This document shows positions 17,123 to 47,170 of a DNA stretch of 47,203 nucleotides, in pieces. The stretch comes from an uncultured Oscillochloris sp. GTDB taxonomy: Bacteria; Chloroflexota; Chloroflexia; Chloroflexales; Chloroflexaceae. Made by a program: the position numbers and the translations under genes. Below the pieces are notes generated by a model that saw only the letters and a list, made by a program, of their open reading frames with translations, was not told the DNA's origin and searched no databases. Location: positions 1-47,203 of the forward strand of contig CAIXLU010000403.1 of assembly GCA_903920315.1 (NCBI GenBank). Direction: 5' to 3'. The number at the start of each line of letters is the position of its first letter. Position 1 is the first letter of the stretch.

Positions 17123-17614
17123 ATGATTCGCACCCCCAACTGCACGTGCAACATCTGTGGCAAGGCTATTTACCGTAGGCCATTTCAAATCGAAAGTCGG
17201 CCAGTCTATTGTAGTCAGGCTTGTGCCGGAAAGGCCCAAAGGAAGCCACGAGTATGCCCTGTTTGTGGCAAAGAATTCCTGGCTGACAGGAGTGAGCAAA
17301 AGACCTGTAGCCATGCATGCGCAAATGTTAACCGTACCGGGATGCGCTACCGGTTGTCTTCACGGCCAAAGAAGGACAAGGCTGACGATAGTCGGACATT
17401 AAAGAAGCGATTAATTGAAGAACGTGATCCCCGATGTGAGCGATGTGGTTACAGCAATGTGGACATCCTAGTGGTTCATCATATCATTCGGAGGAGCGAC
17501 GGAGGTACCAACGATCCAGAAAATCTTCAGGTAGTTTGTCCCAACTGCCATGCGGAGATTCACTTCTATGGGGTTAAGCAGAATCTCAAGGGTTGTCGAG
17601 ATAAATTGACATAA
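17123..17614 (+). CDS. HNH endonuclease with N-terminal zinc knuckles
   Basis: This 163-residue protein has four CxxC/CxxxC-type pairs in its first 75 residues (CNIC, CSQAC, CPVC, CSHAC), probably two zinc ribbons. An HNH domain follows at about 100-155: CERCGYSNVDILVVHHIIRR, DGGTNDPENLQVVCPNCHAEIH. The HH pair, Asn and final His form the ββα-metal active site, with the CxxC pairs giving structural zinc. HNH proteins of this type occur as homing or mobile-element nucleases and in phage. It has its own strong promoter, and its TAA ends one base before tRNA-Ser(UGA), so the tRNA is probably cut from the same transcript. Target unknown. Confidence 0.85.
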   Translation: MIRTPNCTCNICGKAIYRRPFQIESRPVYCSQACAGKAQRKPRVCPVCGKEFLADRSEQKTCSHACANVNRTGMRYRLSSRPKKDKADDSRTLKKRLIEERDPRCERCGYSNVDILVVHHIIRRSDGGTNDPENLQVVCPNCHAEIHFYGVKQNLKGCRDKLT

Positions 17615-43964: not shown

Positions 43965-44164
43965 AGCACGGCTCCAGTCGTACGCTATTACGCTCACATC
44001 TATGTCTATCCATTGTAGCAGAGAAACTACAGGATTCCCCTGCTGCACGATCATCCCTAGCTCTGTCAGCAAACACGATGATGATGCGCGAAATCCTATG
44101 TTACAATTTTAGTGTACATATCAATCCTGGCGATCCTTACTCTCTACCGCACAGGAGGCGGACT

Positions 44165-44749
44165 ATGGTTACGGCAAAAATCGAAATAAACGACGAATCC
44201 GTCGAGGCGCAACTCGGCGAGCGGTTGCTCGCTGTCGCCCGCCGCAACACATCTCATATCGGTTTCTTCTGCGATGGCAACGGGCTTTGTACGATGTGCG
44301 AGTGTAAGATCCTTAGCGGAGCCGATCAACTGAACGAACCCACCGATATTGAACAGGTCTGGCTGACCGACGCCCGTATGGCCGACGGCTACCGCCTCGG
44401 GTGTCAGGCGGCCCTGCGCGGCGTCGGGCCGATTCAGGTTCTCACCCGTGCCGAGGAGATGCGCCGCCAGCTTGACGCAGTCCTCAACCCCCCCGCTGGC
44501 ACCACAGCGATCAGTAACGTGCGCCCGTTACTCTCCACTATCGCCGCCGTCAACTGGCAGCACATCGGCAGGTGGCCCGCCAACCTGATCCACGCCATCA
44601 AACGCCTCGGCTTCGTTGCCGTATTGTTGCCGACCACCGACGATAAACTAATGGCCGCAGATACCATACGGATCACCCGGCGGCTCCTTGCCAAGAACGA
44701 CTCCTGCCTCCCCGCCGCGCCAGCGAAGAAGACGGATCTCCCTGACTAG
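44165..44749 (+). CDS. 2Fe-2S protein resembling chlorosome-envelope CsmI/J/X
   Basis: This is a 194-residue protein with an N-terminal ferredoxin domain. Cys 36, 42, 45 and 80 form the Cx5Cx2C...C adrenodoxin-type pattern (FFCDGNGLCTMCECKILSG, LGCQA). The wording ARRNTSHIGFFC, and later VLTRAEEMRRQLDA, resembles the Fe-S domain of chlorosome-envelope proteins CsmI, CsmJ and CsmX of green sulfur bacteria. The C-terminal half (NWQHIGRWPANLIHAIKRLGF) is hydrophobic in places and could face the envelope. ATG 44165 follows AGGAGGCGGACT. If the match holds, the host is a chlorosome-bearing phototroph and this protein tunes energy transfer by redox. A plain 2Fe-2S ferredoxin is the alternative. Confidence 0.7.
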   Translation: MVTAKIEINDESVEAQLGERLLAVARRNTSHIGFFCDGNGLCTMCECKILSGADQLNEPTDIEQVWLTDARMADGYRLGCQAALRGVGPIQVLTRAEEMRRQLDAVLNPPAGTTAISNVRPLLSTIAAVNWQHIGRWPANLIHAIKRLGFVAVLLPTTDDKLMAADTIRITRRLLAKNDSCLPAAPAKKTDLPD

Positions 44750-44965
44750 GTGTTATAGCAATCCTCTTGAAGCCGTGAAGGGGAGTCAAGGCTTTAGCCG
44801 GCTAAAGCCTTGACTCCCCTTCATAACGGAGATAGGACTGCTATAGTGCGACAACGAGGTTCCGCCACAGAAAGACACAGAAGAACACAGAAATATTTTC
44901 TGTGTTCTTCTGTGTCTTTCTGTGACCGTACATAGCCATTTCGCCCCTACAGACAAGGTACCACT
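44750..44965. repeat. Two perfect large palindromes
   Basis: 44776-44823 is a 48-bp palindrome with no loop (GGGGAGTCAAGGCTTTAGCC and its complement). 44866-44893 pairs exactly with 44897-44924 over 28 bases (core CACAGAAGAACACAGAAA, loop TAT). They lie between the Fe-S gene and the antirepressor gene. The first may terminate the Fe-S transcript. The second is A/G against T/C rich and looks like a mobile palindromic unit. Confidence 0.85.
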
Positions 44966-45733
44966 ATGAACTGGTTTTACGCGCAAGATATTCTAAGTTG
45001 GCTCGGGCCAGACCCAAACCGTACCTACGTACCCATCGCCGAACTCTGCACGGCTCTGGGCCTGAATACGACCAAAGAGGAGCGCCGTCTGCGCGCCCAC
45101 GCCGTGCTGGCATCCGGCGCTCGGCGCATGCCTGTCGAGACCGACACCGGCGACGTACAGATGCTCTGCCTGCGCGTGGAGTTGCTACCGCTCTGGCTGA
45201 TCACCCTGGACGCCGGGCAGGTGAGCGACCCGACGAACCGTGCGCGGCTGGAATTGTTCCAGCGCGAGTCCGCCTCAACGCTCTGGCAGACAGCGCGGCC
45301 CCAGGGCTTCGATAGCGGCGATGTGCTGCTACCAGGACGCCACCAGCAGAGTCAGGCCGAGCAGGCGTATGTAGGGACGATGGCGATGGCCACCCTGGCC
45401 CGCCACCAAATGATGATCGAGCGTCAGCTTGACGGTGTAGGAACCGAGGATCACGAGGACGATCAGGGTGCCGATCCCTGGGCGCGGAGGACAGATACCC
45501 TTGACGATCCCTCGGCGGCGAAGCTGGCCCAGACGGCGCGGCGGGTGGCCCACGCCCTGGCCGAACGCACCCGCCGCAACGAGTACTTCGGCGTCTTCAG
45601 CGGACTCTACCGCAACTTCGGCATCTCGTCATACCGACGTATGCCCAGCGGCAGACTCTACGAAGCCCTGGAATGGCTGGAGCGCTGGTATGGCGATATG
45701 ATGGGCGTACCTGAGCCGCCACCGGATATTTGA
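44966..45733 (+). CDS. Phage-type antirepressor (P22_AR_N and ORF6C-like domains)
   Basis: This is a 255-residue protein. Residues 1-115 follow the P22 antirepressor N-terminal pattern (FYAQDILSWLGPDPNRTYVPIAELCTALGLNTTKEERRLRAHAVL ... CLRVELLPLWLITLDAGQV). Residues 175-245 have the ORF6C-like pattern (TRRNEYFGVFSGLYRNFGISSYRRMPSGRLYEALEWLERWY). In phages such proteins bind and inactivate repressors. No phage structural or integrase gene is nearby, so this is a solitary, probably domesticated copy. Base composition is like the host. The ATG follows a weak AAGGTACC site. Confidence 0.78.
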   Translation: MNWFYAQDILSWLGPDPNRTYVPIAELCTALGLNTTKEERRLRAHAVLASGARRMPVETDTGDVQMLCLRVELLPLWLITLDAGQVSDPTNRARLELFQRESASTLWQTARPQGFDSGDVLLPGRHQQSQAEQAYVGTMAMATLARHQMMIERQLDGVGTEDHEDDQGADPWARRTDTLDDPSAAKLAQTARRVAHALAERTRRNEYFGVFSGLYRNFGISSYRRMPSGRLYEALEWLERWYGDMMGVPEPPPDI

Positions 45734-45831: not shown

Positions 45832-45878
45832 AAGCGAAGCGTCCCGGCGATGATCATGCACATCGGGACGCTTCGCTT
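45832..45878. repeat. 15-bp inverted repeat
   Basis: AAGCGAAGCGTCCCG at 45832-45846 pairs exactly with 45864-45878 across a 17-base spacer. It is the last GC-rich sequence before the AT-rich island begins at about 45880. Confidence 0.8.
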
Positions 45879-45949
45879 TAAAGCGTTGTTTTACAATCAT
45901 AAAATTCATACCAATTTAAAATTTATAATGCAGAACATTTACACCAATA

Positions 45950-45978
45950 TGGACATGTTTCGTAAACTGTGTTATATT
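45950..45978 (+). promoter_or_regulatory. Promoter of the AT-rich nuclease gene
   Basis: TGGACA (45950-45955), a 17-base spacer and TATATT (45973-45978) lie about 40 bases before the start codon. A GAAGGAAG ribosome site (46002-46009) follows. Confidence 0.65.
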
Positions 45979-46018
45979 CCATGAGAGCATCTAAGCATAT
46001 TGAAGGAAGATGATTTAC

Positions 46019-47170
46019 ATGCAGGATTATAAAATTGAAGACCTTGAAATTGAAAAGAATACAACGATTTTACTTGCTAATATAGTGGCAGATTTGAAAA
46101 TGCGTAAATTAGAATGTTTCGATTCAATTGATTGGGATAACACTCTTAAAAAGTATATTAACTACACAAAAACTACACATCTTTACGCAGAAAGTCCTAT
46201 AGAAAAAATCTTCTTGGGAGCTTTGCTAATGGGGTTTCTCGTATCTCAACCAGATTGCTTAATGCTTATTTCACCAACTCGGGATGTTGATAGTTTGATA
46301 GAAAGAGAGAAAAGGCTTATTGAACTTTATGAGCAAATAGAAAGTGCCTATCTTCAAGAAAAGCGCTGTTGTGAATGGAATCCTGAAGAACCTTGGGAAG
46401 AGCCAGAAGAAGAGTCGGATTATCTCAAAAATATCGACGATCACATTTTCAACCTACATAAGGAAGGTGATATTTCTACAGAGGATTATCAAGAACTATC
46501 TGTTAATGGGTTTAGATTTACTGCAAAGTCGGTTACACCTTACTATATTACACCGCAAGTTTATATTCCAAACATTGGAATAGATAAGAAACTTATTCGG
46601 TGCGACCTCTTTATTTGGAATCCGTTCGATGAAAAGCTTCGGTGTATTATTGAGTTTGACGGTTATGAATGGCATTCAACAAATGAAAAATTTACAGAAG
46701 ATAAAATACGAGATAGAGATCTCCGATACCAGAGCTATGAAGTATTACGATATTCTGGAAAAGAAATTAACCAAGATCCAATGAGTTGTGTAAAAGATCT
46801 TTTTAAGCATATTAATACAGGTGAATTAAGAGATTTTTCCATAGATTTTCATCTTATATTATCAGATGAAATAAACAAGGAAAAGGAGAGTATTTTGAAA
46901 CGTAGATGCCCGAAATGTGAAGGGACGGGACACCTACCTATATTCATCCATAGAGACGGGGGTAAGTGTTTTCCTTGTAATGGCACCGGCTACATTAAAG
47001 ATCCTTTGGAGACTATCAAGCCACCCGTATCAGTCGCGCCACCCGTGCCAGTCGTACCCCCCGTGTCAGTCGTACCCCCCGTACCAGTCGCACCGCCTGG
47101 GATTCCGAACATGACATCTACGCCAGCTGCTTCTAACGATGCGACAAGTGAACTCGCCCCAGTCATCTGA
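46019..47170 (+). CDS. PD-(D/E)XK-like nuclease with DnaJ-type zinc module and Pro-rich tail
   Basis: This 383-residue protein is not a family I can name. Residues 58-66 read ESPIEKIFL, a helix that precedes the core in many DUF559/Vsr-like nucleases, with Glu 62. The core is CDLFIWNP (Asp 196), then IIEFDGYEWH (Glu 212, Asp 214), then DRDLRYQSYEVLRYSGKEI, the order seen in that fold. Next come two CxxCxGxG knuckles, CPKCEGTG and CFPCNGTG (Cys 297/300 and 317/320), as in DnaJ's zinc finger. The tail has four 18-bp repeats (47021-47092). It is strongly AT-rich (17 of the first 60 bases at 46021 are G or C), unlike all neighbours, so it was probably acquired. Residues after PPG are antisense ilvB sequence. 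Confidence 0.72.
   Translation: MQDYKIEDLEIEKNTTILLANIVADLKMRKLECFDSIDWDNTLKKYINYTKTTHLYAESPIEKIFLGALLMGFLVSQPDCLMLISPTRDVDSLIEREKRLIELYEQIESAYLQEKRCCEWNPEEPWEEPEEESDYLKNIDDHIFNLHKEGDISTEDYQELSVNGFRFTAKSVTPYYITPQVYIPNIGIDKKLIRCDLFIWNPFDEKLRCIIEFDGYEWHSTNEKFTEDKIRDRDLRYQSYEVLRYSGKEINQDPMSCVKDLFKHINTGELRDFSIDFHLILSDEINKEKESILKRRCPKCEGTGHLPIFIHRDGGKCFPCNGTGYIKDPLETIKPPVSVAPPVPVVPPVSVVPPVPVAPPGIPNMTSTPAASNDATSELAPVI
47021..47092. repeat. Four 18-bp tandem repeats (PPVxVx tail)
   Basis: Units CCACCCGTATCAGTCGCG, CCACCCGTGCCAGTCGTA and two relatives encode PPVSVA, PPVPVV, PPVSVV and PPVPVA. The array ends where ilvB-like sequence starts on the other strand. It is GC-rich, unlike the rest of the gene. 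Confidence 0.9.

Follow-up and report, generated by a model that had tools for sequence, protein, structure and literature searches.

What does an AT-rich gene at the very end of an Oscillochloris contig of 60% GC encode, where did it come from, and what might it do there? The window that we analysed, the whole stretch of 47,203 nucleotides, ends with such a gene, and the initial annotation had described its product as a nuclease with added zinc knuckles and a repeat tail. Our analysis confirms the underlying observation: the open reading frame at 46010-47170 (forward strand) is real and codes for 386 amino acids, or 383 if it is started at the ATG at 46019. This ATG is the likelier start; a Shine-Dalgarno sequence, GAAGGAAG (46002-46009, forward strand), lies nine bases before it at a suitable distance. 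Counting from 46019 reproduces the residue numbers given previously, which are three lower than those of the 386-residue reading used here. The end given previously, 47092, drops the final 26 residues and the stop codon. The sharp drop in GC content that had been reported is there, from about 0.60 upstream to 0.33 at 45880, but the GC content recovers inside the reading frame, being 0.33 over residues 1-296, 0.46 over the zinc part and 0.61 over the Pro/Val tail. This rise means that the AT-rich island stops within the gene, near 47010. The contig itself stops 33 bp past the stop codon.

The assignment to the DUF559/Vsr-type PD-(D/E)XK nucleases, proposed from the letters of the sequence, is now backed by profile, alignment and structure. 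The Pfam family DUF559 (PF04480) matches with 25.3 bits against a gathering cut-off of 20.6 (25.7 bits without the tail), over profile positions 51-108 of 109 only, and MTES_1575 (PF18741) reaches 33.7 bits (E 3.9e-8), below its cut-off of 38.2; the matches fall within residues 194-268. Relatives for an alignment were taken from genomes and viral contigs. All 52 aligned sequences match both models, and they have in common the ESPIE helix and an RxDF...ExDGxxxH...DxxRxR...GxxVLRFTGxEI core, with S62, E65, D199, E215, D217, G218 and H222 invariant. The first part of the core, the ESPIEK helix with S62 and E65 (46190-46249, forward strand), is found by alignment, model and structure match; the second, with D199, E215-x-D217-G218, H222 and D231 (46541-46828, forward strand), by profiles, alignment, model and structure match. 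The putative active-site residues named previously as E62, D196, E212 and D214 are E65, D199, E215 and D217 in our numbering, and since all four are invariant in the 52 sequences, as is H222, their pattern is not due to chance.

The AlphaFold prediction made on the 52-sequence alignment has a mean pLDDT of 73.8, with most of the core at 84-94, and supersedes a run on 7 sequences only (mean pLDDT 47). VIA-align superposes it on NGO0050 from Neisseria (3hrl) with a Z of 10.7 (92/94 residues, 2.1 A) and on the homing endonuclease I-Bth0305I (3r3p) with a Z of 10.2 (97/98 residues), the next-best match being at Z 8.6; the sequence profile also reaches 3hrl, at E 1.1e-10. Foldseek gave no match of the model to the PDB at E <0.001, and in a viral library it gave two matches at E 4e-4 and otherwise weak ones, several of them annotated as DUF559, very-short-patch-repair or homing proteins. 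Structure prediction had been suggested as a check of the fold, and it finds a Vsr-like core covering nearly all of the solved target domain; the superpositions on 3hrl and 3r3p suggest that the conserved residues cluster in space. Judged by sequence and model, the protein contains a Vsr-like PD-(D/E)XK domain as its nuclease core, with the putative catalytic residues intact. This domain resembles DUF559 and REase_MTES_1575 proteins, including Caulobacter VsrA and NGO0050, in its fold, its D...ExDG...H core and its ESPIE helix.

Three features belong to the window protein and not to the DUF559/MTES_1575 relatives inspected: an insert of 97 residues, a C-terminal zinc module and the Pro/Val tail. 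The helical insert (about 97 residues, 46250-46540, forward strand) separates the ESPIE helix from the next core strand and splits the domain, so that SPIE and ExDG are 153 residues apart as against 46-112 in the relatives measured. The zinc module (46907-46990, forward strand), where model confidence is low, reads CPKCEGTG-x12-CFPCNGTG and places its cysteines at C300, C303, C320 and C323. Two CxxCxGxG motifs had been reported and two are present, C300-G307 and C320-G327, but the description of them as DnaJ-like stands only for the motifs themselves. DnaJ (type I Hsp40) is defined by a J domain together with four such motifs, whereas the window protein has two, no J domain is matched, and the DnaJ match is weak (14 bits against 32.7). 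The zinc part is closest to TIGR02642, a phage-named family, and to anti-TRAP, with which it likewise has the two motifs in common; both matches are far under curated cut-offs (for anti-TRAP, 17.6 against 32 in Pfam and 25.9 against 65 in NCBIfam). In anti-TRAP the CxxCxGxG pair binds zinc, and the protein needs it to form oligomers and to function (PMC2896485).

A C-terminal zinc module is missing from every relative inspected (a set of 147 core sequences that includes the window protein), and the survey of homologues that had been suggested finds the same fusion in none of about 145 relatives. Some phage relatives carry an N-terminal zinc-like motif of the form CPxCGA...C.G..G.R.S.H (L123:277-819, L126:4878-5423 and L171:1835-2371, each with the sequence just upstream), so that additions of zinc-like modules in this family are not confined to the C-terminus. 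The GC-rich Pro/Val tail (47015-47167, forward strand) consists of PPVSVA/PPVPVV units, and the PPVxVx repeat described previously corresponds to four tandem 18-bp units at 47021-47094. We rejected the idea that the tail is a copy of a host repeat, as there is no second copy in the genome.

The nuclease gene is single-copy in its genome, and it is missing from five congeners and from 35 further members of the family. No full-length relative turned up in about 1,300 genomes (100 relatives, 400 from the phylum, 398 from the Ruminiclostridium phylum and 386 from the Oscillatoria phylum) or among the viruses, plasmids and phages searched. A single-protein search of genome contigs and viral contigs returned no full-length relative either. 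Core-only matches in the phylum set include an Anaerolineae MAG contig (L007 = L028). The GC content of 0.33 and the absence from relatives support horizontal acquisition of the gene, in agreement with the foreign or mobile origin suspected before. The protein is very divergent: its end branch in the 147-sequence core tree measures 3.61, and because of this long branch its place there is not settled.

The left flank is host sequence. The upstream gene (44966-45733), which has a P22-antirepressor N-terminal domain, is 82-93% identical in four congeners and in some of them adjoins the same glcD-like gene; past its stop the species diverge, and the AT-rich nuclease gene is missing in the congeners. 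The downstream gene of one congener is found elsewhere in this genome. The antirepressor-domain protein has many diverged paralogues in relatives. It is conserved across the genus and the family and is encoded at normal GC; a prophage remnant, which this neighbour might have indicated, was rejected on these grounds. A perfect 15-bp inverted repeat (45832-45878) ends at the start of the AT-rich island. It is probably a host dispersed repeat or the terminator of the upstream gene, because a similar 60-bp element is found elsewhere in a congener. The claim that the gene has a strong promoter of its own was overstated: the best sigma-70-like candidate, with an extended -10 (45950-45978, forward strand; TGGACA-17-TATATT preceded by TG), matches at 10/12 positions, and the seven promoter-like sites in the region are no enrichment over shuffled sequences (4.6 +/- 2.3). 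Further upstream, a ferredoxin-like gene (44078-44749) lies beside glcD here, its nearest congener match being on another contig. Between the ferredoxin-like and antirepressor-like genes there are two adjacent long inverted repeats (44754-44931; 46-nt arms at 80% and 35-nt arms at 91%), which are probably dispersed repeat elements.

Most relatives of the nuclease core are phage genes, and their neighbourhood is conserved. We surveyed 127 non-redundant loci, nearly all viral. A downstream reading frame overlaps the DUF559 gene or lies at most 20 bp away in 117 of them, and in 105 of the 127 the downstream neighbour belongs to one single-linkage cluster; the largest cluster counts 38 members two genes downstream and 6 one gene upstream. 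All nine downstream proteins sampled are replication initiators, primosomal proteins or DnaD-like helicase loaders according to PHROGs. This arrangement suggests that DUF559 nucleases of this branch act on DNA when the phage replicates. The phage nucleases, for example gp45 of Geobacillus phage NIIg9.7, have the ESPIE helix, the RxDF strand, ExDGxxxH and the region after it in common with the window protein. They differ from it in being mostly 160-250 residues long, in having no C-terminal zinc module and in being coupled to an initiator gene, whereas the window gene, to the extent of the contig, stands alone, and up to the contig end 33 bp past its stop no replication gene appears next to it.

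Taken together, we consider it about 60% probable that the gene was acquired horizontally and derives from a mobile element, and that it encodes a Vsr-like (DUF559) DNA nickase or endonuclease to which a zinc module was added; in this chromosome it would be an orphan. Such an enzyme would bind Mg2+ at the site formed by E65, D199, E215, D217 and H222 and nick or cut DNA. Its two CxxCxGxG knuckles would together hold one zinc ion and act as an extra module for binding DNA or a partner, comparable to the accessory modules of phage-type nucleases, the helical insert might supply further contacts, and the Pro/Val tail may be a flexible extension picked up from the host. The ancestral job was most likely the cutting of DNA during phage replication, be it the phage's own origin, host DNA or competitor DNA, since phages encode most of the relatives, paired with a replication initiator gene. 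As an orphan in this chromosome the gene may be retained as a selfish or a domesticated nuclease, and since the protein is very divergent, the function of the phage relatives may not transfer to it. The enzyme type is already known, but its combination with a two-knuckle zinc module appears to be new. What the locus may offer is a known, largely uncharacterised nuclease family that moved between distant genomes and now carries a new zinc module. In a more speculative version, which we hold to be unlikely, a Vsr-like nuclease of a phage replication module was redirected by the zinc module to a new target and became a stand-alone interference nuclease in a Chloroflexota chromosome; the new target could be a protein partner, a transcription or antitermination complex, or a specific DNA.

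Other readings of the same gene have to be weighed against this one. The proposal of the initial annotation was a single-gene nuclease for defence against phages or plasmids, in which the zinc module recognises invading DNA and the nuclease cuts it. That the gene is solitary, AT-rich and sporadic and keeps its nuclease core intact would fit, but no PADLOC family was matched at E up to 10, and neither a defence gene nor a modification enzyme is seen among the neighbours examined, which serve metabolism or signalling or are ordinary host genes (the window genes checked belong to signalling, respiration and glycolate-oxidase-type metabolism). The phage-borne relatives, mainly replication-module genes, suit an offensive or replication role better, and we regard the defence reading as unlikely. 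The window also holds an HNH endonuclease gene (17123-17611) in a slight local GC dip. The similarity to I-Bth0305I raises the question whether this is instead a free-standing gene for a homing-type (EDxHD-like) endonuclease, which would spread through cleavage of empty sites. The catalytic domain fold is the same, both proteins join a nuclease to accessory modules, and the gene is absent at the corresponding place in congeners. Homing-type enzymes do bear extra DNA-binding modules, some of them zinc fingers, and the modular build fits this (PMC3943268). Yet the window gene has no intron and no NUMOD match. It is present in a single copy and in no second genome of those searched, and its phage relatives are tied to one partner gene in a constant pair, which typical homing genes are not. 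No interrupted host gene is seen at the locus as far as the contig end 33 bp past the stop, and with a downstream side that varies among species and a contig that ends here, the locus offers no conserved insertion site for comparison. We hold a homing gene to be quite unlikely.

The Vsr-like fold also invites comparison with Caulobacter VsrA, a DUF559 protein proposed to be a mismatch nickase and unlinked to its methyltransferase (PMC12907096). The window protein, which has the domain family in common with VsrA, could by analogy be a mismatch nickase partnered with a cytosine methyltransferase, and three C5-methyltransferase matches on other contigs of the genome lend this a little support. 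However, none of the three is linked to the nuclease gene, the congeners do without the nuclease gene, and we know of no counterpart of the zinc module and the insert in Vsr proteins; we judge such a role improbable. A decayed or chimeric relic, that is a foreign fragment joined to host sequence without a useful protein, or an assembly artefact at the contig end, might account for the GC shift inside the reading frame near 47010, the position at the end of the contig and the unique architecture. Against this, 386 codons are open and the sequence is continuous with a host gene that is conserved in congeners. A relic or artefact is very improbable, given that all catalytic residues and the four cysteines are intact.

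The two-gene unit of a phage DUF559 nuclease and an initiator, which a large family of these nucleases shares, seems a more general lead than the window gene itself, and suggests that the phage enzymes take part in phage replication or in competition between replicons, not in generic restriction. In the open-licence literature we found no paper that describes such a replication unit with phage DUF559 nucleases. In the annotated Geobacillus phage NIIg9.7 and Stenotrophomonas phage SOVA965, the nuclease and the initiator stand in this order ahead of the replicative helicase, and further examples of the unit are found at L035:5687-7038, L043:4965-7621 and L098:5878-7310.
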